A stretch of 57,978 nt of DNA, taken from the NCBI GenBank assembly GCA_016188575.1, contig JACPHN010000254.1, forward strand, positions 1 through 57,978, read 5' to 3'. Made by a program: the position numbers and the translations under genes. The notes beneath the pieces are model-generated. The model searched no databases. It was not told the DNA's origin and worked only from the letters and a program-made list of their open reading frames with translations. Within the stretch, counting starts at the first letter, position 1; every line of letters begins with the position of its first letter. The DNA comes from Candidatus Schekmanbacteria bacterium (GTDB lineage Bacteria; CSSED10-310; JACPHN01). Below are positions 1 through 57,978 of this stretch, one piece after another.

Positions 1-499
1 GCCGATCTCCACGATGCGCTGCGCCTCCTCGTATCCTGCGCTCCGGTAGCGAAGGCTGTAGGAGCCCGGCGAAAAGGCCGCCTCTCCGGCTGCTGGCGAG
101 AACGAAAAACCGCCGCTCGCGCCGGTAACGGTCTCGAGGGGTTCGACCAGGGCATCGGCAACGCGGAATTCGCCCCCCCCCCGAAACCATGATGAGCCCA
201 ATCCCTCCCGCGACCGCAAGGCGCGCCCGCCGCCCGGCCCCGCGCCGCCACGCCACCGCCAGGACCGCTGCCAACGCGATCAGCATCGCCGCCTGCGCCG
301 GCCCGGAGATCCCGACATACACCTGCGACAAGGACACCGCGATGCCGGCATGGTCCGCGGCGCCGCTCAGGTAGGCGTGCCCGGAAATCGCCGTCACCGG
401 CCCCGCCGCGGCCGCGCTCCCTGCCAACAACGTCATCCACGCGGAGCTCGCCGCGCCAGAAACCCACGCCTCCCGCCGCCAATTCGTGCGATCCGACAT
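1..499 (-). CDS. Secreted protein, CarboxypepD_reg-like domain split by a two-helix hairpin; partial, frameshifted
   Basis: Read on the minus strand from ATG at 499 and running off the window start. Residues about 1-32 look like a long signal peptide ending in an Ala-rich stretch. Residues 34-58 (SGHAYLSGAADHAGIAVSL) resemble the first strands of a carboxypeptidase regulatory-like beta-sandwich. Residues about 60-109 are two hydrophobic segments separated by WRRGAGRRAR. After a run of ten G (173-182) the frame breaks. In the next frame the sequence continues sensibly (EFRVADALVEPLETVTG, then PGSYSLRYRSAGYEEA), which matches the remaining strands of the same domain. A tract of nine G would restore a single frame. 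This is either a sequencing error or a slippage (phase-variable) site. The domain assignment is inference from strand pattern. The gene is divergent from the kinase at 780. Confidence 0.6.
   Translation of the reverse strand, partial: MSDRTNWRREAWVSGAASSAWMTLLAGSAAAAGPVTAISGHAYLSGAADHAGIAVSLSQVYVGISGPAQAAMLIALAAVLAVAWRRGAGRRARLAVAGGIGLIMVSGGGRIPRCRCPGRTPRDRYRRERRFFVLASSRRGGLFAGLLQPSLPERRIRGGAAHRGDR
173..182. repeat. Homopolymer G10 tract (C10 on the + strand)
   Basis: Ten consecutive C on the plus strand lie inside the minus-strand gene 1-499, at the exit of its second hydrophobic segment. Nine would keep the gene in frame, so this single-base difference explains the break. Confidence 0.9.
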
Positions 500-779
500 G
501 TTTTTCCCCTGCGTCGAGCGACCCGGTCGATTTCTCCGAGCTCTCCACCCAGGTTACGCGCGCCCTCCTCGGCTGTCAAGGCGCGGAGCCGTCCTGAATT
601 CACCGCCGGTCCGACGTCGATGCGATAGTGCCCTCCTCCGTCCTTCACCATAGGCGTCCGGTCAAGGCGGGTGGATTCAGGCCGACTTGCCCTCTTCCAG
701 CCATGGCTCTATGAACCTCAAGCGAGATGCGGTCGCGCTCCTGGCCTTGGACGCCTCCGCCACCCGCCTCGGATAAACA

Positions 780-3700
780 ATGACCCTTCCGCAGTCGCGC
801 GCGCCAGCCCGAATTGGTCCCTATGTCATCGAACGCGAGCTCGGACGCGGCGGCATCGGCGCGGTCTACCTGGCGCGCCACCCGCATACCGGAGAGCTGG
901 TGGCGGCGAAGGTCCTCCAGTCGCCCGCGGCTTCCGTGCTTCCGCTGGTCCGACGTGAAATCCTCGCCCTCAGCCGGCTCGCTCACCCCGGCGTCGTACG
1001 CATCGCCGACAGCGGCACCGAAGGCGGGCTGCCCTGGTATGCCATGTCCTACATCGAGGGCGAAACCTTGGCTGACTACCAGGCCGGCAGCGCGCCGCGG
1101 ACGTCGGACACCCGCGACGCGAAAACGAGCCGCTCCACTCTCGTCCAGGTCGCCCACGACGCCGATACCCCGACCGATCCTGTCGCCAATGGCGCCGGCC
1201 CGCGGGCGCTGACCCCCATCGATCCCTCGCGCCTTCGCGGCCTCATCACCATCATCTGCAGACTCTGCTCGGCGCTCGCATACATGCACGGCGAAGGCAT
1301 CGTCCACCGGGATTTGAAGCCCCAAAACGTGATGATCGGCAGGGACGGCCTCCCTATTCTCGTCGACTTCGGTCTCGCCCACCGGTATCGCGGCGACGAG
1401 AGCCGGGAAGTTCTCGAGCTTGACGGCCTGACCGCAGGGACGCTCGCATTCATGGCGCCGGAGCAGATCATGGGGCGATTCGTCGATCCCCGCGCCGACC
1501 TGTACTCGCTCGGGTGCATGATCTACTCGCTGGTGGTTGGACGCACGCCGTTCTCTGGCGCCTCCGGAGCACAGCTTGTGAAGATGCACCTGGAGGTGCC
1601 TCCGACGCCGATGTCGCAGATTGTGGGACCGCTTCCCGCAGCGCTGGACGAGCTGGTTCTCCACCTGCTCGCCAAAGATCCCGCCAGCCGCATCGGGCAT
1701 GCGCAGGACGTGGAGCGAATCCTACTCGACCTGGGCGCCGAGCCCTGGCCCGCGGAAGCGCGGCTGCCGCTGCCGCGACTGTATCTCTATCGGCCGCGCC
1801 TGGCCGGACGGCAGTCGGCGCTGGCGGCGCTAAAGAGTAGTCTGAGCCGGCTCGATCGTGGCGGCGGCGAGCTCCTGCTCGTGCGCGGCGAGAGCGGCGT
1901 CGGCAAGACGCGGTTGCTGATGGAGCTTGGCGCGCTGGTTCGTCGCGCGCGCCTCGCTTTTCTGGTCGGCGAGTGCCGCGTGTCGTTCGGGGCGAATGGG
2001 GCCGGCGAGCGCGCCCCCGCCGAACCCCTGCATCCCTTTCGTCCGATCCTGCAACAAGTCGCCGACACGTGTCGCGAGAGCGGGCTCGAGGAGACCGAAC
2101 GCATCCTCGGCAGTCGAGGTCCCATTCTGGCGCCCTTCGAGCCGTCGCTTGCCGACCTTCCCGGGCAGCAGCGGCACGATTATCCCGGGGACCTCAATTA
2201 CACCGAATCCCAGGTTCGCCTGTTCGTCAGCCTCGCCGAGACACTCGAGGCCTACGCCTGCGATACCCCGTTTGCGCTCTTCATCGACGACCTGCAATGG
2301 GCGGATGGACTGTCGGTGGAGCTCATCCGCTTTCTGCTGCGCTCGGGGCGGCTCAAGCGCACCGGCATGCTGATGATTGGCACCTATCGCAGCGACGAGG
2401 TCAGCGACGTCTTGCGGGAGCTCATCGAAACGCACAGCGTGCGGATCTTGGAGCTCGAACGCCTGAATCGAGAGGGCACCGCCTCCATGGTCTCCGACAT
2501 GTTGGCGCGTCCCGACCCGCCGGTGGATCTGGTGCAATTCATGCACGAGCACTCCGAAGGCAACCCTTTCTTCGTGGCGGAATACCTGCGTTCGGCGGTC
2601 GCGGAGCGGTTGCTCCAGCGAGACGGGTGCGGCCAGTGGGTGGTGGCCGGCCAGCACGAGTCTCAGGGCCGACCCCCCGACTTTTCGGCATTGCCGGTGC
2701 CGGGTTCGATCTACGGACTGGTGACTCGCCGCCTGCAGGCATTGTCCGGCATGGCGGCTCGCGCGGTGACCATCGCGGCGGTTCTTGGCCGCGTCGTCAG
2801 GGCGGATGCGCTCGCCGCGGTCGGCGGCATGTCAGCGGAAGAGCTTGTGGACTGCTCGCTCGAGCTCCTGCAGCGCCAGGTGCTCGAAGAGGTTTCCCCC
2901 GATGTTTTTCGGTTCGGGCACGACAAGCTTCGGGAGGTGGCATACGACACCACGCCGCCGGAAGAGCGGAAGCGCCTGCACCGTCTCGCCGCCGCGTGGC
3001 TCGAGCAGCTCTCGGTGGGGGGCGAGGCGGCGGATCACGCGGTGCTGGCGCGCCACCTCGAGCACGCGGGAGAGCTCGGGCGGGCCGCCCGGCACTACCT
3101 GGAAGGCGGCCGGGCCGCGGCCGAGCGCTTTGCTCACCAGGACGCGATCGGCCTGTACCGCGCGGCGATCCGCCTGGCGGAAACGCCGGATGTGGTGCCG
3201 GCGGCGCATTTCGAGCTCGCGACTCGGGTGCTGGCCATCATCCGACAGGATCGCGAGGCACTCGTGGTCTTGCAAGCCGGCCTCGACATTGCGCTGCGCG
3301 GTGGCGATGGCCTGGCGGTCGGCGCCTTTCAGCAGAAGCTGGCCAGCGTGCTGGCGAAGCTGCGCCGGTTCGCCGAAGCGGAGGCGATCTGCAAGCAAGC
3401 CATGGCAACGTTTGCCGCCGCCGGAAGCGACCGGGATGTGGCGATCGTGCTCGGTGAGCTGGCGGTCATTCGCAGTGGTCAGGGGCGCGGCGCGGAGGCG
3501 ATCGAGCTGCTGCAAGCTGCGCTGCAGAAGCATCGCGAGCTTGGAAACAGACTCTACGAAGCGATCACGCTGGGGAATCTCGCAACTGGCCGGCAGGCCA
3601 TGGGCGACCTCTCCGCCGCCGCCGAGCACTACGAGGCGGCGCTGGCGATCTACGCCGAGGTTCCCAGCCGGAAACATCAGTTCATCATGCTCAGCAACCT

Positions 3701-4424
3701 CGCGGCATTGCGCTGGTCGATGGGAGACGCGGCCGAGAGTCGCCGGCTGTTCGAGCGGTCCCTTGCCATCCATCGCGCCATGGGCAACCGCACCTGGCAG
3801 GCGGCGGTCTTGACCAACCTCGCTGTCTTGGCGGAGGACCGGGGCGACTACGGGGGCGCGCTGCAGCTCGGCAAGGAGGCACTCGCGCTGCATCGCGCTG
3901 TGGGCAACGCGCGCGGCGAAAGCCAGACATTGACCAATCTCGGTTGCGTCCTTACCGAAATGGAGATGCTTGGACAGGCCCGGAGCGCGTTCGCGGAGGC
4001 CTTGTGCTTGTGCCGAGCGCTGGCAGACGCGGCCGGGGAAGCGGCGGCGCTCGTGCTGCTCGGCCGCTGCGAGCGACGGCTCGCGGGCGAGCTCGAGAGC
4101 GCCGAGGGGCACTTGCGGAAAGCGATGGAGATTCTCGATCGCCACGGCGACGAGACGCTGAAGGCGCGTGCACTGTGTGAGCTCGCGCACGTGGCGCTGG
4201 CGAGGCGGGCAAGCGCCACGCCCTACGTGCGCCAGGTCGAGCAGTACTGCGAGGCGGAGAAGCTCGGTGCCGCCAGCTTGCCGCGGCGGGCGCTGCGCGA
4301 GGTGCGCGCGGCGATCGATGCCCAGGAGCGGGGCCAGGAGCTCGTCCGCGGTGAGGCTCCGGGGGCGCTGCCGCTGCCACAGACGCCCACCTCCGTCCCT
4401 CCCAACGCCAGCGGGGGGGGGTGA
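780..4424 (+). CDS. Serine/threonine protein kinase fused to AAA-type ATPase and TPR region
   Basis: A 1214-residue cytoplasmic signalling protein. The kinase domain occupies about residues 10-310, with glycine loop GRGGIG (22-27), Lys44, HRDLKPQN (His176, Asp178), DFG (Asp196) and MAPEQ. An insertion of about 45 residues rich in Thr/Asp lies between the hinge and the catalytic loop. A STAND/AAA-like ATPase follows, with Walker A GESGVGKT at about 370 and Walker B LFIDDLQWAD near 500. The C-terminal 450 residues are helical TPR-type repeats (for example LGNRLYEAITLGNLA and MGNRTWQAAVLTNLA). This is the architecture of large myxobacterial-type kinases, here without a C-terminal GAF or histidine kinase module. 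There is no strong ribosome-binding site before the ATG, so the start rests on the kinase beginning immediately afterwards. Its substrate is unknown. Confidence 0.93.
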   Translation: MTLPQSRAPARIGPYVIERELGRGGIGAVYLARHPHTGELVAAKVLQSPAASVLPLVRREILALSRLAHPGVVRIADSGTEGGLPWYAMSYIEGETLADYQAGSAPRTSDTRDAKTSRSTLVQVAHDADTPTDPVANGAGPRALTPIDPSRLRGLITIICRLCSALAYMHGEGIVHRDLKPQNVMIGRDGLPILVDFGLAHRYRGDESREVLELDGLTAGTLAFMAPEQIMGRFVDPRADLYSLGCMIYSLVVGRTPFSGASGAQLVKMHLEVPPTPMSQIVGPLPAALDELVLHLLAKDPASRIGHAQDVERILLDLGAEPWPAEARLPLPRLYLYRPRLAGRQSALAALKSSLSRLDRGGGELLLVRGESGVGKTRLLMELGALVRRARLAFLVGECRVSFGANGAGERAPAEPLHPFRPILQQVADTCRESGLEETERILGSRGPILAPFEPSLADLPGQQRHDYPGDLNYTESQVRLFVSLAETLEAYACDTPFALFIDDLQWADGLSVELIRFLLRSGRLKRTGMLMIGTYRSDEVSDVLRELIETHSVRILELERLNREGTASMVSDMLARPDPPVDLVQFMHEHSEGNPFFVAEYLRSAVAERLLQRDGCGQWVVAGQHESQGRPPDFSALPVPGSIYGLVTRRLQALSGMAARAVTIAAVLGRVVRADALAAVGGMSAEELVDCSLELLQRQVLEEVSPDVFRFGHDKLREVAYDTTPPEERKRLHRLAAAWLEQLSVGGEAADHAVLARHLEHAGELGRAARHYLEGGRAAAERFAHQDAIGLYRAAIRLAETPDVVPAAHFELATRVLAIIRQDREALVVLQAGLDIALRGGDGLAVGAFQQKLASVLAKLRRFAEAEAICKQAMATFAAAGSDRDVAIVLGELAVIRSGQGRGAEAIELLQAALQKHRELGNRLYEAITLGNLATGRQAMGDLSAAAEHYEAALAIYAEVPSRKHQFIMLSNLAALRWSMGDAAESRRLFERSLAIHRAMGNRTWQAAVLTNLAVLAEDRGDYGGALQLGKEALALHRAVGNARGESQTLTNLGCVLTEMEMLGQARSAFAEALCLCRALADAAGEAAALVLLGRCERRLAGELESAEGHLRKAMEILDRHGDETLKARALCELAHVALARRASATPYVRQVEQYCEAEKLGAASLPRRALREVRAAIDAQERGQELVRGEAPGALPLPQTPTSVPPNASGGG

Positions 4425-4528
4425 GGTGGGAGCTTGATCCCGCTTCGGCGGCAGTCTTGCATGTTCCGCACAGCGGCCATACGAACACCTCCACGCACTG
4501 TCGCCGCCCTCGCCTGTCCGGTCGATTG

Positions 4529-5323
4529 ATGTACGTTGACGTTCATGCTCATCTCGTCCACCCGGCGTTCGCGGGTGAGGAAGACGCTGTCGCCGGCCGC
4601 GCGGCCGCGGCGGGGGTGGAAATGGTCGTGGTCACCGGGCTGGAGCCGCGCTCAAACCGCGCCGTTCTCGAGCTGTGCGAGCGCCATGCGCACCTGCTTC
4701 CAGCCCTCGGCATCTACCCGGTCGACGCCCTTTGCAAGCTTGTCGATCGCTCCTCGTGGCAGCACCCGTTTCCGCCTCCCGAGCGCTTTGACGTCGAGGA
4801 AGAGATCGCGTTTATTGACTCGGTCGCGGGCCGGTTGGTCGCCATCGCGGAAGTGGGGCTCGATCAGTACTGGGTGCCGGATTATCCCAGGGAGCAGGAG
4901 GAAACCCTCCGCAAGCTGTGCGCCGTCGCCATGCGGCACGACTTGCCCGTGGTGCTCCACAGCCGCAAAGCGGAATCGAGGACCTTTGCGGTCGTGCGCG
5001 AAATGGGAGTGGCGCGGGCGGTTTTTCACTGCTTCGGCGGCAAGCTCAATCTGGCCAGACAGATCGCGGATCACGGCTATTGTTTCTCGATCCCCCCGGT
5101 CGTGGAGCGGGCCGAAGCCTTTCAAGCGCTTTGCCGAGCTCTCCCGCTGGACAGGCTGCTGACGGAGACGGACTGTCCTTACCTGGGACCCGATCGCGAT
5201 CAGCGCAACGAGCCCGCCAATATCCCGCGCGCCGTGCGCGCCATGGCGGCGGCGCGAAAGATCCCCGAGCGAGAAATGGCCGCCGCGGTGCGCGCCAACT
5301 TTCGCCGCACGTTTGGGCGCTGA
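4529..5323 (+). CDS. TatD-family metal-dependent hydrolase
   Basis: A 264-residue TIM-barrel hydrolase of the TatD (amidohydrolase/DNase) type. Metal-binding motifs appear in the expected order: DVHAHL near the N-terminus, AIAEVGLD for the bridging Glu, VLHSR, FHCFGG, and TETDCPYL for the catalytic Asp. TatD proteins are generally metal-dependent deoxyribonucleases or phosphodiesterases, but the substrate here cannot be read. The frame is open further upstream (from 4421). The ATG at 4529 is chosen because it directly precedes the barrel's first strand, YVDVHAHL. The gene follows the kinase by about 100 bp on the same strand. TatD proteins usually start exactly at this point, which supports the choice. 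Confidence 0.9.
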   Translation: MYVDVHAHLVHPAFAGEEDAVAGRAAAAGVEMVVVTGLEPRSNRAVLELCERHAHLLPALGIYPVDALCKLVDRSSWQHPFPPPERFDVEEEIAFIDSVAGRLVAIAEVGLDQYWVPDYPREQEETLRKLCAVAMRHDLPVVLHSRKAESRTFAVVREMGVARAVFHCFGGKLNLARQIADHGYCFSIPPVVERAEAFQALCRALPLDRLLTETDCPYLGPDRDQRNEPANIPRAVRAMAAARKIPEREMAAAVRANFRRTFGR

Positions 5324-5441
5324 GTCGCGTGGGCGCTGAGTCGCGCGGCCGCCGCAACGATCTCGCGCGCGCGCCGCGCTCGCGCTATGATTATCGCGCT
5401 CTCGCTGCATTCGGAGCATCCCCTCGATAGGTGCCACGGCA

Positions 5442-7592: not shown

Positions 7593-7622
7593 CTATGGAG
7601 ACTCACGCCCGCTGGCCGCGGC

Positions 7623-8420: not shown

Positions 8421-8436
8421 CGTCTGCCCGCCGCAA

Positions 8437-9459: not shown

Positions 9460-9707
9460 ATCAGAGCTCCAGGGAAGCGGTGGCGCAGCCAGACAGTTAT
9501 GCGGGACGTTCGCGACTCGAGACTTTCAATGTAGCACAACAGCCGCGAGCCGAAAAGGGAGGCGGTTCTCCCTGAAGCTACGCGGCAGTCGGGACCTGCG
9601 CCCGCTTGCCGGGGGAGGTGAGGCGGGGTCTGCGAGGTGCGCGGCGCGGCCGAGGAATGCTATATCCTAGTGCCGCCCCGTGTCACCTCATTCGACGGAG
9701 TCTCCCC

Positions 9708-33298: not shown

Positions 33299-34975
33299 TC
33301 AGTTTGCGTCCAGTTGCGACCTGATCCAGGCGATCGACTCATCGTCCGCCAGTTGGCTGCTGGTCAAATAGAAGAAGGCAGTAGTTTCGTGCTCGGCCCC
33401 CGGCACCACCACGTAATCAATCGCATTGCCTGCTGCTTGCAGCGCTTCGACGGTTTCCCGTGTGTAGGGCTCTGGAGTCGTGTTGTCCTCGTCACCTTGA
33501 TAGACCCGGAAAGGCGCCGTCTGTTCGTATGGGGCGACTGCATTCAAAGTGAACGCGTCGTGAACCATAGTGTACTCGCTCCACGTCTCCGTCTGCATTT
33601 CGTGGAGAAACGTTTCGTCAAAAATTCGATTCGGGATATCCGGAATACGATCACCTATGGATTCTCCGAGTGCAAACATACAGTAGTTATTCATCGTGTC
33701 GTCGATTGTGGAGGAAAGACTGGATGCCCAGATCGGTTTGCTCCAACCATAGCGATCCGCCCAAGCGTAGAATAGCATCGCATGATATTTGAGCGCATCT
33801 GTGATGTAGCTCGTTGTGGGCAGCCAATGGCTCTCCCACACCGTGGCAGGTCCGGCGGCGGCAAAGGCGCGGATATCCAGGTCGGGAGCGTATTCCGCGT
33901 GCAGGGCTGCGGCGGCGAAAGTGGCGTGCCCACCCTGGCTCAGACCAGCAGCCGCAAATCGATTCGTGATCGGTAGACCCAGGAGCGCTGCCAGCGTCCG
34001 CGTCGCGCGCATGCCGTCCAGAGAGCTCGTGGCTTCGACCCGCTGTGTAAGGTAATGATGTAGGCCGGGCGTTCCGAGGCCGGCGTAGTCGCTGGTTACG
34101 CCGATCATGCCGCGCCCGCCAAAGTAGGATGACAAGCCGATGCCGACCGACAGCCCGGCAGTCGCGCAAACGTCGCCGATGCCGACAGTGCCGTGATTAT
34201 TGGCGGCAATGTGCCATCCTCCTGCCGGAGGTGTCAGCCCGGTATCGAATGGCACGGTAACCGTGGCACCGGAAACGGCTCCATCCGTGGCGTAGTAGAT
34301 CGTGTAGATCGAGTACCCGTTGTCGAAATTGATATCCGGGGTGGCGTACGGATCGATGACGGCCTTGGTGTACGAGCCACCGTACGAGCACTGCCGCAGA
34401 CAGCCGTTCGTGGTGCACTCCGGCGCGACATCGATCGTTCCTACCGGCACCATTACCGTGTCCGATTGCAATACGCCGTCGCTGCTGGTGACGAGCGTCA
34501 CCCAGTAGTCGTAGGTGACCCCGGCGGTGACCTGCGTATCTGTATAGAGCTTCGTGCCCTGGGCATCGATAACGGCGAGCGGATCCAGACGCGACTCCGA
34601 TTGACTGGCAAAGCCCACGCCAGCGGCCAGGAGAGCGAGCACCGGAGGCGCGAGGCGCGGTAGGCGGCCCTGGCGTCCCCTGAGCCATGTGCCCATGAGG
34701 GCGATCCCGAGCGCTGCGAGGAGCAGGGCGGTCAGCGTGACGCCATTGGCCGCGGGCACCGTTAGCTGATGAGCTTGCCGGTAGACCTCGTAACGGACAA
34801 AGCCGGCGTCGGTCGTGGAAGTCCACCACAATTCGACGGACGGCGTTGCATCCGGTGTCACGCTCTGCAGTACCAGCGTCGAGCTCGCCGCCACCTCGGC
34901 AACCGTTACTAACGACAGCGCTGCGAGCAGGCCAGCTCGGAGAGCCCACCGAGGCAAGTCCCTTGACAGTTTCAT
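33299..34975 (-). CDS. Secreted lipase-like alpha/beta hydrolase with FN3-like domain split by a two-helix hairpin
   Basis: 558 residues from the ATG at 34975; the longer frame to 35101 is basic and unsupported. A signal peptide (ALRAGLLAALSLVTVAEVAA) leads to an FN3-like domain. Its early strands VELWWTSTTDAGFVRYEVYRQ are separated from its late strands LAVIDAQGTKLYTD and VTYDYWVTLVT. Between them, residues 73-125 hold VPAANG, a hydrophobic helix, WLRGRQGRLPR and a second hydrophobic helix. The catalytic part (about 190-558) resembles secretory lipases. The nucleophile elbow is GLSQGGHA (Ser346), with acid candidate GDED and His in VPGAEHET. The family usually hydrolyses esters of lipids. 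The hairpin would place the hydrolase on one side of a membrane or make it a processing substrate. Confidence 0.82.
   Translation of the reverse strand: MKLSRDLPRWALRAGLLAALSLVTVAEVAASSTLVLQSVTPDATPSVELWWTSTTDAGFVRYEVYRQAHQLTVPAANGVTLTALLLAALGIALMGTWLRGRQGRLPRLAPPVLALLAAGVGFASQSESRLDPLAVIDAQGTKLYTDTQVTAGVTYDYWVTLVTSSDGVLQSDTVMVPVGTIDVAPECTTNGCLRQCSYGGSYTKAVIDPYATPDINFDNGYSIYTIYYATDGAVSGATVTVPFDTGLTPPAGGWHIAANNHGTVGIGDVCATAGLSVGIGLSSYFGGRGMIGVTSDYAGLGTPGLHHYLTQRVEATSSLDGMRATRTLAALLGLPITNRFAAAGLSQGGHATFAAAALHAEYAPDLDIRAFAAAGPATVWESHWLPTTSYITDALKYHAMLFYAWADRYGWSKPIWASSLSSTIDDTMNNYCMFALGESIGDRIPDIPNRIFDETFLHEMQTETWSEYTMVHDAFTLNAVAPYEQTAPFRVYQGDEDNTTPEPYTRETVEALQAAGNAIDYVVVPGAEHETTAFFYLTSSQLADDESIAWIRSQLDAN
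34601..34759 (-). other. Internal sorting-signal-like hairpin module, copy in the lipase-like protein
   Basis: Encodes residues 73-125 of the lipase-like protein: VPAANG, a helix TALLLAALGIALMGTW, the basic turn LRGRQGRLPRL, and a helix PPVLALLAAGVGFA. It interrupts the FN3-like fold between strands C and D/E by sequence pattern. Confidence 0.65.
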
Positions 34976-40213: not shown

Positions 40214-43200
40214 TCACCTCCGGGCGGCGTCCGACCCACTGCTTTCACGCCGCCTGCGGCTCCCGATCCTGGTCGACGCGACGCCCAGCAGCAACACCGC
40301 CAAGGTGGCGGCAACCACGGGCGACGCCACCGGGACGGGCGCCATGAACGGTTCCAGCTCATGGCGGTTGCTCTTGTTTCCCTCCGCGTCGATCGACAGG
40401 AGGCGGGCATAATACGGCTTACCCGGGAAGAAACCGGCCAGGGTGATCTCGTGGTGCTCCGTGTGCTGCCCGTCTTGCGCCAGCAGCGCGTATTGCATCC
40501 CGCCACCGTATTCGACGATGGAGCTCGCGGGCTCGTCGGTGTCCCACTCGACCACGGCGGTCTGGCCGTCCTCCCAACGGAATCGCACCGACGCCGCTTC
40601 GATCTGTGGCGGCGTCACGTCCTTTTCGGGCGGGAGCTGCACCTGCCCGGGGCCGAAAGACTGCCCGTTGCCCGCGACATCGCTGGCGCCGATCTGATAG
40701 AGAATCTTCTTTCCGGACTCCAGTCCCGTGAGCAGCACCAGATGGCTGGTCACCAGCGCATGGTCTTCGATCCGCAAGCGCAGGGGTAAGGACGTCCCGT
40801 AGGTCACAATGCTCTTCGCCGGCTCGGAGGTGCGCCAGCGCAGCAGCGCCATGCCGTCCGACAGCGGCACGACCGCCACGTCCGCGATCTGGGGGGGCGC
40901 CGTATCCGGTTCCGCCGGAGGATTGACGTCGAGATCGGGCGACTCCGACGCCAGGTCGTACCCGTCGAAGGTGCGCGAGTAGACCACTGCGGTGTAGATT
41001 CCTGGTATCACCCCCGTGAACACGGCGCGGTGGCTCGTTCCCGCCGCGGCGCACATCCATACGTAGCTCGCTTCCGCCGATCGCAGCTCGAGCGCGCCGG
41101 TCGTGTCCCGATTGGTTTGCCAATCCACCACGATTCTGTCCATCGCCGAGAGCACGACAATGGCGGCACCGATCAGGGCGGGCGGCATGGTATGACCCGC
41201 CTCCAAGGTCGAAAAGATCAGCGCTTCCGATTCGACGGCTCGGTTGTAGAGGTCGACGCTGCGCACGACTACCGAATAGCGCGTATTCGCGGACAGGTTC
41301 GTGAGCGCAATCTCGTGCTCGAGCCCCAGTGGTCCGACCTCCGCCGACGGGGTGAGCGTTCGCGTGATGCGTGGAGGCGACACCGCCGGACCGAGCTCGG
41401 CATCGCTCCCCACCTCCGTGAGGGAAACGATCGACCCGGTCGCGGCAAAATCCGTGGTCCAGGAGATGATGACCTGGTTGGTCCCCAGTCGGCGGTAGTC
41501 GGCAAACGGGCCCGCGGTGATGCGAAGGTCGCCGATGGGAGCGGCGGCGGCCGTCTGGCAGGCTCCGGTGATGACCGGCGCGGCGTTGCCCATGCGGTCA
41601 TGGAAGGTCACGCGGTACTCGATGTCCACGCCGGTGGTCGAGCCGGGCAGAAACAGAGTCTGCCTCCGCAACAGCGTGGCGAGGTCTGCAACCCCGCCCA
41701 GCGCGCCCCCCGAGCTCCCCCACTGCAGCGTGGCCCGAACCAGCAGTGGAGATTCGAGAATGATCACCGCTCCCGCGGCGCCGGCGGTCCGCGAATCGCA
41801 AAACACGCTCGCCGTGGAACCGATGCTCGGAGCGCAGCCCACGCAAGTCGTGACGCGCCTCTCGCCGGAGACGGCCTGGTTGCCCGCATGGTCGGTCGCG
41901 ACCACAGAGAACAGATAGGTCACCCCGGGCCCTAGCCCCGTAACCTCGACCAGGTGCTCTCGAGACAGGAACAAGCGCCTCGCCAACCTTCGCCCATCGG
42001 AGCGCTCGGGCCGCAGCGACACCTCGACGAGCACCGGCTCGTCCGCGATGATGCGGATGACGATTCGATCGCTGCCCACCTCGATGACGGATGGCGCCTC
42101 GTAGAACACGGGCCGGACCGTGTCGCCGCCCGGAACGGGTGGGATGGTGATCGGATCGGAGCAGGACGCGTCCCGTGCCGTCGCCGGCTGAACGCATACC
42201 GAAACGGTCTCCCCAAGCGGCGGCGCCGACAGGTCGACGAGGACGCTGCGCCGCGTAGCGAAAGCGGCGTCCGCAAACAGAGTTTCGCCCAATTCCGTGA
42301 TCACTTCCGCCGACGAGGGCTCGTTGACCGCCCACGATACCAGCAGCGAGCTCGGCGCGAGCGCTTCCACCGTGGGTCCGGAGAGGAAGTGGATCGCTTC
42401 GGCGCCCGCGGTGCTCGAGCGTGGCATGGCCTCCGCAAAGGTTCCCAGACTGGGGCCGTACATCGGGCTTCCGGACTGCCCCACCTGCGGCACGGCAAAC
42501 AGGGCGTAGTAATACGTGAGGTCATTGGCAAGACCCGCGTCGAGATAGGGGAGCTGCGGATCCGTGACCACCCAGGTGCCCTCGGCGGGCGTCCGCGGAT
42601 GGCGATCGACGGCGCGCCGAATCATCCATGAGACGCCGGTGGAGAGATCCGGAACGGCGGTCTGGCCGGCAAAGAAGGTGAGCCACACGGCGGAGTCCGC
42701 GGGGCGCGCAACCAGCTCGTCGGCGTCCGGGAGGGGAATGGCGTCCGCCGGAACGGGAGTGGGGGTGCCGGTGGAGGTGGGTGTCGAGGTCGGAGTCCAG
42801 CTCGGGGTGGTGGTGCTGGTAGGGGTAGGCGTTGCCGTGGCGGTTGGTGTTGCCGTGAAGGTATGTGTGGCCGTCTCCGTGGGCGTGTGGGTGGCCGTGA
42901 CGGTCGGGCTGCGGGTAGCGGTAGGCGTCGCCGTGAAGGTAGGTGTTGCCGCCACCGTGTGCGTCGCGGTGGGCGTGTGGGTGGGCGTGTGGGTGGGCGT
43001 GTGGGTGGCCGTGTGGGTGGCCGTGGCGGTCGGGCTGCGGGTAGCGGTAGGCGTCGCCGTGAAGGTAGGTGTTGCCGTCGCCGTGTGCGTCGCGGTGGGC
43101 GTGAACGTGGGCGTGTGGGTGGCCGTGGCGGTTGGGCTACGGGTAGCGGTAGGCGTCGCCGTGAAGGTAGGTGTTGTCGTTGCCGTGTGCGTCGCGGTGG

Positions 43201-45517
43201 GGGTGAACGTGGGCGTGTCGGTAGGCGTCGACGTCGCGGTGTCGGCCGGCGTGGCGGTGGGTGTTGGCGTCGGACCCGAGAGGTCCTGGGTGAGCCAGGC
43301 CACGAAGGCCTCTTTTTCCCCCGCTCTGCTTGCCTGGTAGCCACCGGTGGAGCCCGGGAACCCATCCGACGTCGTGACCCCCGCCACGTAGAGGTCACTT
43401 CCTGCGACAGCGGCAGCATGGCCGGTTTCGCCATCGGCGCCCCCCAGGTAAGTCGTCTGGACCAAGGTCGTCAAGGCGGGGTTTAGACGCACCACGAAGG
43501 CGTCCGTCGCCCCATTGAGTGCCGGCTGGAGGGCCCCGGTCGTGCCCGGCAAGTCGGTGGAGCTCGTGTCCCCGAGCACCAAGACCTCCGGAGCTGCCAA
43601 CCCGCCGAGGGCCAGGGCCATGCCGTCGTCGACACCCGATCCGCCGAGGTAGGTCGTCTGGACCAGCGAGGTCAAGCTCGAGCTCAAGCGGGCGACGAAG
43701 CCGTCCTCAGCGCCGCCGAAGCTTGCCTGCGCGCCACCTGCAGTGCCTGGAAAGTCCGAGCTGCTCGTGTAACCCGACAGGTAGACGTCCTCTCCCGTGA
43801 CGGCGAGGGCGCTGCCGTAATCGTTCCCCTGGCCGCCGAGATAGCTTGACTGCCACAACACCTCGAGTAGCTCGTCAAGGCGTGCCACGAAGACGTCCTG
43901 GCCGCCGCCCGTGCTGCTCTGCGCCCCACCCACCGTTCCCGGGAAGTCCCCGGACGGTGTATGGCCGACGGCAAGGACGGTGGTCCCGGTCACCGCAATG
44001 GCGGTCACCTCGTCGTAGGTCGTCATGTCCGACCCACCGAGGTAGGTCGCCCCGAGAAGCGAGGTCAGTGACGAATCGAACCGCGCAAGGAAACCGTCGC
44101 CGGTGCCTGAGAGGTTCGGCTGGGCGCCGAGGGCGGTCCCCGGAAAGTCCGCGGAGCGCGTCAACCCGCCGACAAACACGTAAAATTCCGTTACCACCAG
44201 ATCCCGAATGATCTCGGAATAGACGGTGTGCGCCCCCCCGAGGTACGTCGCCTGCGCAAGCGAGGTCAGCGACCGGTCGAGCCGCGCCACGAAGCCGTCC
44301 CCGATCCCCGCGAGGTTCTCCTGGGCGCCCCGTGTGGTCCCCGGGAAGTTGCTCGAAAACGTCTCTCCCGCAACCAACACCTCGTTCTCTGTGACGGCAA
44401 GCGCATTGATGAAATCGTCCTGCGCCCCGCCGAGGTAGGTCGCTTGAGAAAGCGAGGTCAGTGCGAGGTTGAGCCGAGCCACGTAGCCGTCCCAGTTGCC
44501 GCCCGTTGTGCCCTGGTATCCGCCGGCCGTACCGGGGAAGTCGCTCCCCATCGTCGCGCCTGCGACAAAAACCTCGCTCCCCGTGACCACGATGTCGTGA
44601 AGCTGCTCGTCGGAGGCGCCGCCGAGGTAGGTCGCCTGCAGCAACGGATCGATGACGAGCGCATGTCGTGGGTCGCGAGGGCCGACGGTGAAACCGTACC
44701 GCATCCCCTGCAGCCGATATGCTACCGGGACTTCCACCCGGCCGCCCTCATGTTCCTCGAAAGCCACGGGTTTCGACAGGGTGACGTTGCCGAGGCCCGT
44801 TTCGATCACAAGCTCGCCCTTGGTAGAGAGCGAAAGGGTGCTCGCCCCGCTCACTTCCATCCAGATGAGCTCCGGGTCATGCTGGGGGGCCACGCGGTAC
44901 ACCTTCTCGATGTTCCGACCTCGTGCCTCCAGGGTGATCTCCACGCCCGGCCAGAGCTCGCCGAGATTGATGGAATCCCAGGTCTTCAGCTCCGATCGCC
45001 AGCGACCCGGATCGCTGCCGACAAAAGAGCTTACCCTCGTGCTGGCTTCGGCCTGACCACGAACCTCGGGCGTGGAGCCCGGGAACCGCTCGACGATGGT
45101 CCAGCTTGGGGTGGCCTCGCGTGCTTCCCGCCGGGAGGCGTCCCGGTCACCTGGCTGGCCGGGAAGCGCGTAGACGATTTCGCCGCGCGCGGTGACGAAG
45201 ACCGTTCCGGCGAAGGTGTGGGCGCTGAAGCGCACCGTGGGGTCGAGCTGGCCCTCGTTGGCCACGAAGGGCACGCGCAGGTCGCCGAGGCGCGAGCCGA
45301 GCTCGGCACGCACCGGGAGCTCGGGGACGGCGCCGGCGGGCGTCGCGGGGGAGGCGAGCAGGAGGAAGAGCACGAGCGCGCGCCCGGGGCCGAGCTGGTG
45401 GGGTCCCTGGCCGGATGTTGCCGTGCGGGCGCCGCGTTGCCGTTTTGGGAGCTGTGCAGTCGCTCGGCGTGGGTGGCCGAGCCCGGCCTGGGAAGAACAT
45501 TCTGGGACGTCGGTCAT
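40214..45517 (-). CDS. Giant secreted SBBP beta-propeller protein with FN3-like domains and C-terminal sorting signal
   Basis: 1767 residues from ATG 45517 with AAGGA upstream; the frame is open to 45922 but the added part is unlike protein. A signal peptide lies at about 46-63 ([17 protein letters not shown]). A beta-rich N-terminal domain follows. Residues about 293-748 are seven SBBP repeats (TYLGG, VxVAG, DFPGT, GFVARL), exactly enough for one seven-bladed propeller. Residues about 752-925 are a Thr/Pro linker. Residues about 930-1715 are FN3-like and other Ig-like domains, repeatedly ending TRYSVVV or KILYQIGA type strands. The last 41 residues are PVPVASP, a hydrophobic helix and RIGSRRRR, a classic tripartite PEP-CTERM-like signal. 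It is probably an outer-surface protein, processed by an exosortase-type enzyme or simply anchored. The ligand is unknown. Confidence 0.9.
42750..43262. repeat. Minisatellite coding for the Thr/Pro linker
   Basis: GTGGGCGT/GTAGGCGTC-type units of 6-18 bp are repeated, with a longer block (GCGGGTAGCGGTAGGCGTCG and the following 25 bp) at about 42907, 43030 and 43135. The three blocks are about 105-123 bp apart, which implies duplication and likely length variation. Confidence 0.9.
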
Positions 45518-45762
45518 CCATCTGTTCCTTGGCAAGGGAATCTCCTTTTTGTGCGCGGAGCCAGGGGGTCCCCGACTTGCCAGCAGCATGCTTGGCCATC
45601 GCGGCGGCGACTGACACCGTTTCGAGTTGGGTCTTGATGCCCGTGCCCTTGTTTGCAACCGGTGCGCCAGGATCGCATCGGCAGCACGCGGCCCGGCCGC
45701 GCGGCGGAGGAGGCGGTACGCCGAGCTATTGCGGCCCCGAAGCGAGGCCGTGCGATCGGTGC

Positions 45763-45793
45763 AGTTGTACAAGATGACGCCAAGTTGTACAAG
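45763..45793. promoter_or_regulatory. Two AGTTGTACAAG sites 20 bp apart
   Basis: Identical 11-mers with palindromic core TTGTACAA start at 45763 and 45783, two DNA turns apart. They lie about 250 bp upstream of both flanking genes. Cooperative regulator binding is inferred. Confidence 0.55.
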
Positions 45794-45807
45794 GCGTGCG
45801 CCATGAA

Positions 45808-45874
45808 CGAGTAGACGGATGGCTTCCGGCGTGGCAGGTTGGTGTTTCGCTGTTTCCGCGTGTTTCCCGGCGGA
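45808..45874. repeat. Direct repeat R2
   Basis: Second copy of the repeat at 39926-40000, 5.9 kb away in the same orientation, so that the pair brackets the SBBP gene. Confidence 0.7.
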
Positions 45875-46041
45875 GCTACGAGATTCAGCCAGAGGGTCGA
45901 GCAGGCAGTGGATGCAGGGCATCGGCGCGCCTTGCGGCGACGCAGGTGCAGACCTAAGATGGTTGTCCGTCGCGGTGGCACCGTCGCGACAGCCAGTACC
46001 CCGGAGCCGGCAGAAACGCCATCCAGCAGCGAGGAAAGAAC

Positions 46042-49032: not shown

Positions 49033-49060
49033 GCCGCCGCGGGGCTCCTTTCGCGAAAGC

Positions 49061-49093
49061 CCGCAAGCGGGGTGAGGGGGTGAACAGATACCC
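49061..49093. repeat. Dispersed CCCGCAAGCGGGG-GAACAG repeat
   Basis: One of three similar intergenic copies; the others are at about 33238-33276 and 36940-36971. Each has a CCGCANGCGGGG hairpin followed by a GAACAGRTA box. All lie outside genes. Confidence 0.7.
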
Positions 49094-49121
49094 CGGGTCA
49101 CTTGCGGTTCCCCTTCTGATT

Positions 49122-51656: not shown

Positions 51657-51883
51657 GTCAGTCTACTACCATCAGGTGTGATCGTGGGCGGCCGGCGGCG
51701 ACCGCGATTCCGAGCGTAGGGGAACGGACGGGAGCTCCTTCGCCGCGACGCCGAGTTGGCCGCGCACGAAGGTCTGTTCGCAGCCCCACGGCGTTTTCCT
51801 CCGCCGTGCCCGTTCCTGCCCCTGCCGGGTCTAATTCGCAAAGCACCGTCTACGTTACCGCCACTCGCGCTCGGAGAGAAAAC

Positions 51884-53017: not shown

Positions 53018-53226
53018 GGCGTCGGTGGGACGGGGCGAATCCCGCCGCTACGCCATGGCGATCGACGACGTGGGGGACGTCGCGGAGTCCGCCCGGGCGG
53101 GGCCACCGATTTGTTCGCGGTGACGCCGGATTGCAGCGCGAAATCATCGCGTTGGCCGGTTTCGGGACGGACATAAGGGGGTCGGGCGCGGCATTTCGCG
53201 TCCCGGCGACCCCGCTCCCGGCGCTT

Positions 53227-53290
53227 GATCAGTTTCGAGTTTCGAGTTTCCGAGCGGCAAAACTACAGGCTCGAAACTCGAAACTCGACA
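53227..53290. repeat. AAACTCG hairpin element, copy A
   Basis: Several CGAGTTT and CGAAACT units flank a core CCGAGCGGCAAAACTACA. The core recurs in inverted orientation at 53757-53830. Confidence 0.8.
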
Positions 53291-53420
53291 GCTTGTCGGC
53301 GAGTCGGACGCCGATGGTGGAATCGCGGACGATGCGCTGGAATTCCGAGCGTGTTCCACACGGTCAACGGAGGATATGGTCGGACGTGCACGAACGGGGC
53401 CGAATGGAATCAGGGAAATT

Positions 53421-53516
53421 GCACCGCGGAGAGCGCGGAGAGAAAAAAAGCAGAAGCAGGCATCATCGACAGCTCGATTCCTCTGCTCTGCGTTCTCAGC
53501 GAGCTCTGCGGTAAAC
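53421..53516. repeat. Imperfect inverted repeat of the CGCAGAG type
   Basis: The left arm CACCGCGGAGAGCGCGGAGA at about 53422 resembles the reverse complement of the right arm ending CTCTGCGGTAAAC at 53516. It is a wide-spread intergenic palindrome style. It lies next to the broken Rpn fragment. Confidence 0.65.
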
Positions 53517-53550
53517 TTGCTGGATCTCCGGTTGACCAGGCGGGACACAC

Positions 53551-53688
53551 CCGGAATTCCTTGTCGAGGGCTTCCGGCGCGCGGCTCCAGTCCACGTCCG
53601 CGTGGACTGCGGGGAAGAAAAAGGCGAGAAACGGTTCCAGGTCCCGATCGAGGAGGTCTTTCCAGACGCTGTCTTGCTGGTGCAGCAT
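53551..53688 (-). pseudogene. Rpn-family (YhgA-like) nuclease N-terminal fragment
   Basis: Forty-six residues (SVWKDLLDRDLEPFLAFFFP, then HADVDWSRAPEALDKEFR) match the start of Rpn/YhgA-like recombination-promoting nucleases, which normally run on for 250 residues or more. The frame then enters the inverted-repeat element. The gene is a remnant, flanked by the AAACTCG elements. Confidence 0.7.
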
Positions 53689-53753
53689 GGGCGGCGAGCA
53701 TACCGCCGACCGCTGCTGGCGCCGATGGCCGATGGGCCATCCGGGAGCGCGTG

Positions 53754-53830
53754 ATCAGTTTCGAGTTTGTAGTTTTGCCGCTCGGGAGCGCGAAACTCGA
53801 AACTCGAAACTCGAAACTACTAACTCGAAA
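53754..53830. repeat. AAACTCG hairpin element, copy B
   Basis: Begins GATCAGTTTCGAGTTTGTAG like copy A and carries the inverted core TGTAGTTTTGCCGCTCGG, followed by four CGAAACT units. It is about 0.5 kb from copy A. Confidence 0.8.
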
Positions 53831-54649
53831 GCGGTCCGCTCGCGGAGTCTCTCGCGCGGGTGTGGCGAGCGCGCGGCGCCAGCCCGGGAACCGTAGTGGG
53901 TACTCCAGGAGGGAATGGCCGGCGACTCCGATGCCCGGCCGCAGCCTCCGAATTCGCGTGCGGCATCGCCAAGTTGCGCCGCTTGGGTGCAAGGTTTGCT
54001 TGCGGGGCGGCTGCAACTGCTTGCGCCTTGACACCGGCGCAGCAATGGAGGATAATCAGATCCAGTTCTCCCGAGCGCGGGCCGAGATCCGCGGCCGCCG
54101 CGGGGAGGGGTCGCCCAAGACCATGGGGAAGGCGTTCATGAGACACGGCCTCGAGCCGCGACCTGGGAAGACTACGGCCGCATGCGCCGCCGTGGCACGA
54201 TTCTTGCGTGCCTGCGTGCCTGCCTTCCTCGTGGCGCCTCGGCAGCAGGCAATCTTCCCCCGGACGGCACGCTCCCTCTCGCGGCAAGCGCGGCCAAGGG
54301 GACAGAGCGCGCGCTGGTCGCGACGGAACCCGCCTTGCCAGGGCCGGAGCGCGCCCCCACAGCCGCGGAGCCCGGCCTCCCCGCAGCCGAGCGCGGGCAC
54401 CGGGAGACGGAGCGCGGCCCCCTTTCGCCGGAGCCCGCGCGGCGCGCCGCGGAGCCCGCCCAGCGCGCCGCGGAGCCCGCCACCCTGCTCGCGACCCGCG
54501 CGCCCCATCCGACGGATGCCGCCTTGCCTGCCATCTTCGCCGCCCCCGCCCGCGCGGAGCGCCCGGCCGCTCCCAAGGACCCCGCGCACGTGGCCGTCCC
54601 GGCCGCCGGCGAGCCCATCAGCAGCCCGATCCGCAACCGGAGGAGCACC

Positions 54650-55340
54650 ATGCCGAGCAGCCCCAACTGGAAACTTCGCCGTCTGGCCCCTCGAGCCATC
54701 CGCGTCCTCGCGCGCCGGGGCGCCGAGTCCCCCGCCATGGCCGCCTACGATCCCGTGCTGAAGGAGCACGCCACGGCCTTCATCGCCGCTTATGACGCGA
54801 CCCTGCGCCACTCATCGACGTGGCGCCGGGAGCTTTACGAGGGCCGCGGCGCGGCGGCGGCGATGCTGGCGGCGGTGCGCGCCTGGCTGCCGCTGCTCGC
54901 CCGCGACGTCCCCGGGTTCGACGCCGCGTCCTACGCGGGTGGCAGCGCGGTGCCCGACGACCTGCTGGCCGATGCCGAGCGCCTGGCCGAGCAGATCGAG
55001 GAGGCCCGGACCCCGGTCGGTGAGCCGCTGCCCTACGTCGCGGCGGCGCTGGCCGCCCTGGACACGGCAACGGTGGCGGCGCGCAAGGAATGGGCCGAGG
55101 CGGAGGCCGCGGATCGCCAGTACCAGGCGCAGCTCGCCGCCACCCCTCTCGGCGGGCGCGGCGTTCGAGGTGGATCTGGTCGCGTTCCGGCGCACGCTGC
55201 TCGCCATCGCCGGCCGCGGCGACAAGGACTTCCAGCGGCTGCGCGCCGCACGGGCGGCGCAGGAAGATGGGGAGGATGGGGAAGAAGCAGCGGCGACGCC
55301 GCCGAGCCCACCCACAAGCGCACCGGAAAGCGAGGTGTAG
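54650..55340 (+). CDS. Hypothetical helical protein, frameshifted near its 3' end
   Basis: About 229 residues. ATG 54650 has GGAGGAG five bases upstream. The protein (MPSSPNWKLRRLAPRAIRVL, ATAFIAAYDATLRHSS, LLADAERLAEQIEEAR) is Ala/Leu-rich and mostly helical. Around 55142-55147 a run of four C shifts the sense. In this frame it continues as Arg/Gly noise. In the next frame it reads AGAAFEVDLVAFRRTLLAIAG to a stop at 55340. Three C would join them. The first frame has no stop until the window end, so automatic calling may merge it with the next gene. The family is unknown to me. Confidence 0.6.
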
Positions 55341-55418
55341 GCTTGAGCACCCAGCGAACGAATGTTACAGCTCACGTCCCCCCCCGCTTGCCGGGGGAAC
55401 AGAGGGGGGAGATCAGCG

Positions 55419-55460
55419 ATGGCGCAAGAAGCGCTCGGCCTGCTCACGCGGCCGCCGTGA
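55419..55460 (+). CDS. Possible leader ORF coupled to the metalloprotease gene
   Basis: Thirteen codons (MAQEALGLLTRPP) preceded by a GGGGGGAG ribosome-binding site and ending TGATG, whose ATG starts the next gene. The only good Shine-Dalgarno in the area serves this short frame. It could be a translational leader, or the true N-terminus joined by a lost base. Confidence 0.35.
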   Translation: MAQEALGLLTRPP

Positions 55461-57978
55461 TGCTGGCGTTTGCGCTCACCACTCTCGTGGTCTTGCCGCC
55501 AGGCGCAGCCCGAGCCGTGGATGCGGTTACGCTGCAGACGCCGGTTGCCGCAAAGCTCCTGGTCGAGGGTGCGAGCACCGCCTACGCAACGCAGGGCAGT
55601 GAGCTGATCTACCATGCCATCGGGTCTTACGGCCCCGTGGTTCAGCTCACCTGGACCGAGAGCGCCGCCGCCGATTTCCTCGCCTACTCCCTCATTCGCG
55701 CGGACGGGCCCGGCTTTCCGGTGCCTGACTCCGGCGGGTTCGCGGTCGTGGTCCTGCTGTTTCTGGCGGCCGTGGCCTTGCGGCGTCGACGACCTTCACC
55801 CGCCCTGGTGCTCGGACTGGCGGTTCTTTTCGCCGCCGGATCATCGCTCTTGCTCGCGAAAGCAGAGACTGTGGAAGTCGGCCGCGTGACGGACCGCGGC
55901 ACGACTTCCTTCATCGATCGCGCGGCGGCGTCCGGGCAGACGTCGTACTACAAGGTCGTGCTTGTCACCCGCTCCGGAACGGCTGACAGCAATGTGGCAA
56001 CGGTGCCCGTGCCGGAGGTGGAGCCGGCAGGCGATACCTTGAGCTGGTCGCTGCCCACGGCCCCATCCGGCGCCGCGATCGATGAGCAGGGAGTGGTGCG
56101 CTGGACACCTCGCAGAGGTGATGGCGCGTCGGCGAATGTCGTCGTGCGCCTCACGTCGGTGGCGAACGGCACCGTGGATCATGCGGTTGCCGTGCAGGTG
56201 GCAGCGACGACCATCGAAAGCGAGCAGCCCATAGCAGCCGCGCAAGGAGGCACGGTGGAGGTCACGTCCGGTGGGGCGGCAGGCGTCGAGGTAACGGTAC
56301 CGGCCCAGGGCATGCCTGTCGACGCGACCGTGGCGATCGGCACGGCCAGCGGGCTTCCGCCCCTGCGGGCCGGCGTGACGACGATTACGGCCGCCTTCCG
56401 CTTCACGGCCGAAAACTCGGCGTTCCTGGATGGCACGACTGCCGGCATCCCGTACGACGAGGGGAGCTTGCCGGCGGGATCGACGGAAGCCGACATCTTC
56501 GTCGTCGCCTACTACCACGGTGCGTGGTTCGACGGCGACGTGGCGTCGCTGGACAGCGTGGCCGACGTCGCGACGGTTGCGCTCTTCGGCGCGGAGGTGG
56601 TGGTCGGGCTCGCCGTGGAGACAGGAGCGACGCGAGCTGGAACGGAGCCGCTCACCCGCGCCGTGTTTGCCGGTCGTCCCTTCAACATCGACTACGAGGC
56701 CGGCGGGGCGGACGCGCCAGTGGCAAACTGTAACACCCAGTGCGATCCGGGTGCGGGCGCGCCGGACGGGTATGTGCGGGGATATTCCGACAGGACCTAT
56801 GCGCCGGGCGTGCCCGACTACGTGCAGGATGTCGCGTTCGCGTTGCAGGACGCCCTGACGGCCTACAGGAACCTCGGCTACGCGGATCCCACGGCGGGCG
56901 GAGCGACGCGGATTCGAGTGAAGCTCAGGCGTTACGCGTTCGGCGGGCTGATGGATCGGTCCAACCAGGTTAACCCCATGTTCCCGAAAACCATCAACCT
57001 GCACAGCACGCAGAGCAGGATGTGTGGCGGGGGACGCTGCTATGACGGCGGCTACCCCACGGCCGCGCTTGTCAAGTCGGTCGTCGCTCACGAGCTGTTC
57101 CACCTGGTGCAGTATTCCTATAATCGACTGGCGCTCGCAACGTGGAGCAACGATTGGGCCTACGAAGGCACCGCGCAATGGGCAACGGGAATGGCGTTCC
57201 CCGAGGCGCTGGACATCTGGGGGAGGCGGATCCGGGACTACTACGAGCTGGGGTTTCCGAGGAAAAGCTGGCTTTCGTCTACAGCTCTGGACGGTGGCAA
57301 CGGCTACGACGCGTTTCCCTTCTGGTTGCACGTGCAGAGCCGATTCGGCAGCGCCGCGCTGGTCGACTTGTGGGAGCAGATGGCCGACAGTGGTTGGCTG
57401 GAGCAGACAGTGGCGGGGGAGCTCGCGGCCGATCGGATGCTGGCCCTTCCGCAGTACGGCTCGAGCCTGGAAGAGGAGGTTGTGGGCTTCGCGGACCGCT
57501 GGTTCTACCGGCATGACGACGACGAAATCTTCGAGGCCGACCACTGGGTGAGATTGGGTGTGCTGCCAGGACCCTTTGTGGTGAGCAGTCTCCCGCGAAC
57601 GGACACGTTCAACGTTCAGGTACGGACGTGCATTCCCCGCAAGATCCTTGCTGGTTTGTCCAGCGGCAAGCTGGTGGTGACTTTCAGCAATCCCGACGCC
57701 CCCATACCTTTCCAGGTGGCATGGCGGAGCTCGCTGCTGGCCCGGCGATCCGACTCCGGCGCGATCGTGGACGTGGGCACGTTCACGGGAGACACGGGGA
57801 CGCCGCTGGAGCTGAGGGGCTTTGGCACGACCTACAGCGAGGCGTTTCTGGATGTGTGCGCGGTGCAGTCGATGGGTGAGGTGAGGAAGGACAACATCGA
57901 GGTGTCCATGCAGGTCGTGGGAGCGGCGACGCCGACGCGAACCCCTACGGTGCCGGCGACAGCAACCGGGACAGCCAC
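55460..57978 (+). CDS. Secreted zinc metalloprotease with FN3-like domain split by a VPDSG hairpin; partial
   Basis: At least 839 residues, running off the window. A signal peptide (MLAFALTTLVVLPPGAARA) is followed by an FN3-like domain. Its strands VVQLTWTESAAADFLAYSLIR and TSFIDRA/TSYYKVVLVTRSG are separated by residues 88-133: VPDSG, a helix AVVVLLFLAAVAL, RRRR, PSP and a second helix. Beta-rich domains follow. The peptidase has HELFH (His544, Glu545, His548) with Glu569 in YEGTAQW as the likely third ligand, a gluzincin pattern. A Thr/Pro linker (TPTRTPTVPATA) starts at the edge, like that in the SBBP protein. The whole frame lacks a stop, so ORF tools miss it. Start 55460 could instead lie upstream. 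Confidence 0.8.
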   Translation, partial: MLAFALTTLVVLPPGAARAVDAVTLQTPVAAKLLVEGASTAYATQGSELIYHAIGSYGPVVQLTWTESAAADFLAYSLIRADGPGFPVPDSGGFAVVVLLFLAAVALRRRRPSPALVLGLAVLFAAGSSLLLAKAETVEVGRVTDRGTTSFIDRAAASGQTSYYKVVLVTRSGTADSNVATVPVPEVEPAGDTLSWSLPTAPSGAAIDEQGVVRWTPRRGDGASANVVVRLTSVANGTVDHAVAVQVAATTIESEQPIAAAQGGTVEVTSGGAAGVEVTVPAQGMPVDATVAIGTASGLPPLRAGVTTITAAFRFTAENSAFLDGTTAGIPYDEGSLPAGSTEADIFVVAYYHGAWFDGDVASLDSVADVATVALFGAEVVVGLAVETGATRAGTEPLTRAVFAGRPFNIDYEAGGADAPVANCNTQCDPGAGAPDGYVRGYSDRTYAPGVPDYVQDVAFALQDALTAYRNLGYADPTAGGATRIRVKLRRYAFGGLMDRSNQVNPMFPKTINLHSTQSRMCGGGRCYDGGYPTAALVKSVVAHELFHLVQYSYNRLALATWSNDWAYEGTAQWATGMAFPEALDIWGRRIRDYYELGFPRKSWLSSTALDGGNGYDAFPFWLHVQSRFGSAALVDLWEQMADSGWLEQTVAGELAADRMLALPQYGSSLEEEVVGFADRWFYRHDDDEIFEADHWVRLGVLPGPFVVSSLPRTDTFNVQVRTCIPRKILAGLSSGKLVVTFSNPDAPIPFQVAWRSSLLARRSDSGAIVDVGTFTGDTGTPLELRGFGTTYSEAFLDVCAVQSMGEVRKDNIEVSMQVVGAATPTRTPTVPATATGTA
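55721..55858 (+). other. Internal VPDSG-type hairpin module in the metalloprotease
   Basis: Encodes residues 88-133 of the metalloprotease: VPDSGG, hydrophobic helix, RRRRPSP, hydrophobic helix ending SSLLLA. VPDSG followed by a helix and Arg cluster is the layout of VPDSG-CTERM exosortase signals, but here it is internal. Confidence 0.7.

Follow-up and report, generated by a model that had tools for sequence, protein, structure and literature searches.

Known exosortase signals form C-terminal tails, the typical signal of the exosortase XrtH being IPTLxxWG at the C-terminus. We analysed a window of 57,978 bases (positions 1-57978 of the 60286-base contig JACPHN010000254.1, from a 9.2 Mb draft genome) in which three genes, named here A, B and C, carry an exosortase-type signal inside a beta-sandwich domain, as part of a module made of a motif, a helix, an Arg-rich turn and a second helix. 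The first half of this module has the tripartite motif-helix-Arg order of the PEP-CTERM, IPTL-CTERM and VPDSG-CTERM signals; these are C-terminal, whereas in the module the chain continues through the second helix. The genome belongs to the candidate phylum CSSED10-310, a rare and uncultured group from which five genomes were announced (PMC8248873), and our comparison set consists of eight genomes of this phylum, that of the window included.

The family NF033207 (midcut_by_XrtH), pointed to in a sequence-only reading of the window, does exist and has clear members in Acidovorax sp. MR-S7 and Diaphorobacter caeni. Its proteins resemble those of the window in displaying a signal peptide, a short first part, a VPTLTQWG-type motif, a helix, Arg residues, another helix and then more protein, in genomes that encode XrtH, which is also the exosortase type found here. 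The family cut-off of 45 bits is not reached: genes B and C give no match, paralogs score 12.8 and 10.7 bits, and the best match in the window's own genome attains 26.5 bits over part of the model only. The window proteins are not filed under NF033207 because they fall below this threshold. The downstream sequence of NF033207 appears to have no relation to the FnIII and carboxypeptidase halves of the window modules, and the high copy number and G-tracts of the window genome are not described for that family. The window modules are a broader, divergent form of the midcut-by-XrtH idea and appear to work alike. No paper on the module was found in the literature on midcut, XrtH and IPTL-CTERM, most subscription papers lying outside the search.

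The best experimental precedent for internal cleavage that our comparison offers is HVO_0405 of Haloferax volcanii, in which archaeosortase A (ArtA), a relative of the exosortases, cuts a centrally placed signal with a requirement for the lipid enzymes PssA and PssD, and whose N-terminal piece is recovered in the membrane fraction (PMC7157517). The window modules are unlike HVO_0405 in that their site lies inside a single fold and is conserved between families. GAIN and SEA domains have a fold that cuts itself in a loop and whose halves remain non-covalently joined, without membrane hairpin or exosortase; in function they would resemble the proposed cut module. The exosortase-type signal described here is embedded in a folded domain; it occurs in two sandwich folds that are unrelated, is present in dozens of copies in one genome and is conserved across the phylum. 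If the signal is cut, the module would provide a general route to two-chain surface proteins joined by their own fold, and a new role for the large, poorly understood exosortase family.

A hairpin inserted within one beta-sandwich

Gene B (minus strand, 33299-34975) encodes TVPAANG, a first helix, the turn RGRQGRLPR and a second helix, with a LIP-type secretory lipase domain further on. An AlphaFold2 model of its module, built on 17 paralogs, has strands at residues 6-38, helices at 48-70 and 80-93, and strands again at 104-147, with a core pLDDT of 94-97 in each half; its residues 1-150 align to solved structures as a single FnIII domain (Z 12.6-10.8). Transferred to the DNA, the gene start together with the signal peptide and the beginning of the mature protein occupies 34859-34975, the first FnIII half with strands A, B and C 34763-34885, and the TVPAANG motif 34742-34762. 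The hairpin extends over 34601-34741 (helix 1 at 34682-34741, turn at 34655-34681, helix 2 at 34601-34654) and is followed by the second FnIII half with strands C', E, F and G (34439-34600) and by the lipase (33299-34438; PF03583, 3e-11).

The same arrangement is predicted for a different fold in paralog L038, which is of the gene A type. Its AlphaFold2 model has strands at 2-23, helices at 31-49 and 56-68, and strands at 76-127, the cores of both halves having pLDDT above 90, and it superimposes on the transthyretin-like domain of carboxypeptidase D with Z 12.0 and 1.8 A over 79 of 81 residues. Profile matches agree with these models. When the hairpin of paralog L005 is removed in silico, Pfam fn3 is matched from position 2 to 83 of its 84 (35.5 bits); the N half alone matches positions 2-36 (23.7 bits) and the C half alone gives no fn3 match. 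The carboxypeptidase type matches positions 1-81 of 82 in Pfam with 35.8 bits, and because 34.0 of these bits are already obtained with the C half alone, its split leans mainly on the model. The fn3 scores of genes B and C themselves are too low for the hairpin-removal comparison. In the models, the FnIII fold (genes B and C) and the transthyretin-like or carboxypeptidase-regulatory fold (gene A type) are each formed from residues on both sides of the hairpin. Structure prediction agrees here with the split domain proposed in the sequence-only reading, namely one sandwich interrupted by a two-helix hairpin; two complete domains flanking the hairpin were considered and rejected, since the models give a single sandwich with a hairpin insert.

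Gene C (plus strand, from 55460 to the window end) reads VVQLTWTESAAADFLAYSLIRADGPGF-PVPDSG-GFAVVVLLFLAAVAL-RRRRPSP-ALVLGLAVLFAAGSSLLLAKA-ETVEVGRVTDRGTTSFIDRAAASGQTSYYKVVLVTRSGTADSNVATVPVPE. Its signal peptide is encoded at 55460-55525, the first FnIII half at 55517-55717, the PVPDSG motif at 55718-55735, the hairpin at 55736-55864 (helix 1 at 55736-55780, RRRR turn at 55781-55801, helix 2 at 55802-55864) and the second FnIII half at 55865-56017, the FnIII fold being assigned by homology to gene B. The remainder (56018-57978) comprises a He_PIG-like stretch and an MXAN_6640-like HExxH metalloprotease (HELFH at 57089-57103), and the gene extends beyond the window.

Gene A (minus strand, 1-499) encodes a signal peptide (404-499), ISGHAYL...HAGIAVSLSQV, and then ISGPA, a helix, RRGAGRRAR and a helix. 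The first half of its sandwich (320-403), ISGHAYLSGAADHAGIAVSLSQV, consists of two strands and is carboxypeptidase-regulatory-like by homology to the modelled L038. The motif before helix 1, VGISGP (299-316), is atypical in having neither VP nor IP. The hairpin (173-298) is composed of helix 1 at 248-298, the Arg turn at 221-247 and helix 2 at 173-220, and the end of helix 2 is encoded by a tract of 10 G (173-182; C on the plus strand) that throws the second half out of frame. That half, FRVADALVEPLETVTGASGGFSFS..., is the remainder of the domain and is read in another frame (1-168) until it runs off the contig end. As a consequence of the frameshift at 173-182, gene A is not readable as a single protein in the assembly.

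The sequences of the three genes confirm that each bears the module. For gene A, the sequence-only reading had recognized the parts of the module and overlooked the G-tract. The three proteins had also been called unrelated. This holds for gene A, whose fold is different; the modules of genes B and C are about 26% identical and represent one FnIII type. The downstream effectors do differ as had been reported, with a lipase in gene B and a protease in gene C. Both B and C run on for hundreds of residues past the hairpin, and the signal does stand at the C-terminal end in a neighbour, a 1902-aa protein (minus strand, 40214-45922) that terminates in the ordinary form VPVASP-helix-RRRR.

Signal, exosortase and recurrence of the module

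The motif was tested on 39 modules from the phylum, using the pattern [VIL]P-x(1-6)-G and 5000 shuffles. It precedes helix 1 in 25 of the 39 modules when 7.2 are expected, a value reached by none of the 5000 shuffles, and precedes helix 2 in 2 of 39, against 1.7 expected; these modules are related in sequence and the counts are not independent events. Enrichment before helix 1 and not before helix 2 is what a sorting signal predicts, unlike a plain hairpin anchor. The turns of the 39 modules contain 171 R/K and 3 D/E. The AxA motif of signal peptidase is not enriched after helix 2 (23/39, 20 expected, p 0.13), which argues against a signal peptidase I site at this position.

The sole exosortase found in the window's own genome is of the XrtH type, scoring 86.5 bits to TIGR04177 (NCBIfam cut-off 86), with its Cys, Arg and His positions in SGCTGI, NVVRL and SHEYLW. 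An XrtH homolog is present in all eight genomes of the phylum; the seven others also match TIGR04177, one of them over the cut-off. Every genome that bears modules has an exosortase, the co-occurrence anticipated by the sequence-only reading. The VPDSG of gene C is no mark of the VPDSG-CTERM system: XrtC was not found, the exosortase giving 19.5 bits against TIGR04151 with a cut-off of 300, and a VPDSG-CTERM/XrtC system was rejected in favour of XrtH. IPTL-CTERM proper has one match in this genome.

The modules of the genome were counted from searches with genes B, C and a gene A relative and from profile searches in which 150 candidates were scored, and were tallied from translations, so that all counts are lower bounds. 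At least about 39 paralogous modules accompany the single exosortase: at least about 21 are of the FnIII type and at least about 17 of the carboxypeptidase type, eight of the latter being frame-broken at a G-tract and two damaged otherwise. One further hairpin, L077 (G000:C31:9002), whose Arg turn contains a 10-G tract and which leads in frame into dockerin-like sequence, provides a third hairpin context. The translations have a common plan of signal peptide, internal motif-helix-Arg-helix and further protein, a few copies (e.g. L010, L014, L031) lying deeper into the protein. Hairpin-free FnIII and carboxypeptidase domains also occur in the same genome (L019, L055).

Across the phylum, six of the eight genomes have the carboxypeptidase type, with the hairpin in the same loop and motifs such as VPALSVTG, IPTLSVTG, IPSIGVTG and VPTLSLFG. 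In the sister-genome modules L188, L189, L192, L203, L204 and L213 it precedes what reads as a probable FGE-sulfatase domain, often via a Thr/Pro-rich linker. FnIII-type modules occur in one further family of the phylum, again with the hairpin in the same loop; one of the proteins there is apparently orthologous to the beta-propeller protein L031. Among the best candidates (up to 14 per genome) from 297 genomes of the phylum of genome G012 (Binatia), no full-length match to the carboxypeptidase type was obtained, and the four matches inspected are all hairpin-free.

Proposed cleavage and its alternatives

The sequences and the predicted models establish that the hairpin is inserted within one fold and that this recurs in two folds; they also establish the motif, the pattern of charges, and XrtH as the sole exosortase found. 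We propose that the module offers the exosortase an internal substrate site within a loop of the beta-sandwich. Because the signal peptide would export the protein, the first strands would then lie outside the inner membrane. XrtH would read the IPTL/VPxxG-type motif, helix 1 and the Arg-rich turn like an ordinary C-terminal sorting signal and cut at the motif, before helix 1, the new C-terminus of the N piece probably being passed to a membrane acceptor. Helix 2 would bring the chain back outside, where the strands still missing from the FnIII or carboxypeptidase-regulatory-like domain could pair with the N piece. The processed N half would hold the effector (lipase, metalloprotease, probable FGE-sulfatase domain and others) non-covalently, and the hairpin, if not removed, would anchor it in addition. 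The reading we consider most likely, and reasonably probable, is cleavage by XrtH at the motif with the two halves remaining together as a single sandwich.

Several points weigh against this proposal. No cleavage was observed. The ISGP of gene A and about one fifth of the 39 motifs are without VP, IP or LP, and the N piece of the carboxypeptidase type, of only about 25 residues, makes a thin tether. The presence of XrtH in all eight genomes renders dependence on it untestable by presence and absence within the phylum. XrtH-bearing beta-proteobacteria are without the carboxypeptidase-type module, the FnIII type not having been searched there, and XrtH alone is therefore no predictor of the module. 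As a precedent, HVO_0405 is a strain-specific fusion of two separate genes, cut between domains by ArtA at a PGF motif.

The alternative that fares best is an uncut anchor, in which the two helices fix the sandwich to the inner membrane without proteolysis and the motif caps a helix or belongs to an interface. Anchoring by two helices with a positive turn is common, the topology would be N-out/C-out, and this reading is at ease with cleavage not having been seen. Yet the motif enrichment is limited to the helix 1 side, as in sorting signals, IPTL-type motifs occur in sister genomes where XrtH is retained, and true C-terminal forms of the signal exist in the same window and genome; we hold such an anchor to be unlikely but not negligible. 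Somewhat more doubtful is a double cut, by XrtH before helix 1 and by signal peptidase I after helix 2, which would release the hairpin fully. Helix 2 does resemble a signal peptide in charge and length, and some exits read AKA/E or AQA/L, but AxA is not enriched overall.

We give little credit to an origin by gene fusion, whereby a protein with a C-terminal signal was joined to the one after it. The signal peptide of the latter would have turned into helix 2 and, as with HVO_0405, two independent products would result. Besides that precedent, this scenario can call on L165 of a sister genome (G002:C9:99413), which reads IPTL-helix-Arg-helix-GFAQ/TAHFVNP in one frame and continues into beta-helix-like sequence. 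In the FnIII and carboxypeptidase types, however, the halves are incomplete and only their joining completes a domain, and the unenriched AxA count after helix 2 speaks against it as well. Most improbable of all is that the exosortase acts as a transpeptidase that excises the hairpin like a membrane intein and rejoins the sandwich covalently, while a G-tract determines cell by cell if the second half and effector are produced. The only pointers to such ligation are the sortase-like chemistry and how well the halves fit.

G-tracts in the gene A family

Ten paralogs of the gene A family have a G-tract at one site directly after helix 2 (173-182, minus strand, in the window; loci L217-L223 and L294-L296). 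The tract lengths are 9, 9, 9, 10, 10, 10, 11, 13, 17 and 25 G, and they disagree even where the flanks are 93-95% identical (10 against 25 G, and 11 against 13 G). The reading frame is kept in two copies and lost in the other eight, which retain open downstream frames that can exceed 850 aa. Close pairs differ at 16, 7 and 39 sites in codon positions 1, 2 and 3, respectively (five pairs summed, three of them with shared members). The gene A family has in this way a long G-tract in a frame-determining position whose length varies from copy to copy, a pattern that fits phase variation. Phase variation is likely, although tract lengths in a draft assembly may be wrong. A copy in the off state would yield no more than the N half and hairpin, and the tracts would place a switch at the same point as the hairpin.

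There is a considerable chance, which we put somewhat short of even, that the copies are decaying pseudogenes or homopolymer assembly errors and that no switch exists. The assembly is a draft, eight of the ten copies are out of frame, and several lie at contig ends. Against this stand the homology of both flanks at a single site across the ten paralogs, the length differences of 9 to 25 G between copies with nearly identical flanks, the open downstream frames and the predominance of third-position differences in close pairs.

Phase-variable surface genes of Campylobacter and Neisseria have a long G-tract inside the coding frame (PMC8355987, PMC3786947). The gene A family differs from them in that its tract always occupies the same position behind an exosortase-type hairpin, and its switching is putative. 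The G-tract following helix 2 in this family is a previously unreported feature. The genome contains 86 runs of at least 9 G, most of them outside hairpins. A repeated element contains several long tracts, and low-complexity repeats contain others (L062, L079, L080, L252). In the window, the Ser/Thr kinase-AAA-TPR gene (780-4424) has a 9-G tract (4413-4421) at its extreme end, overlapping the start of the next frame.

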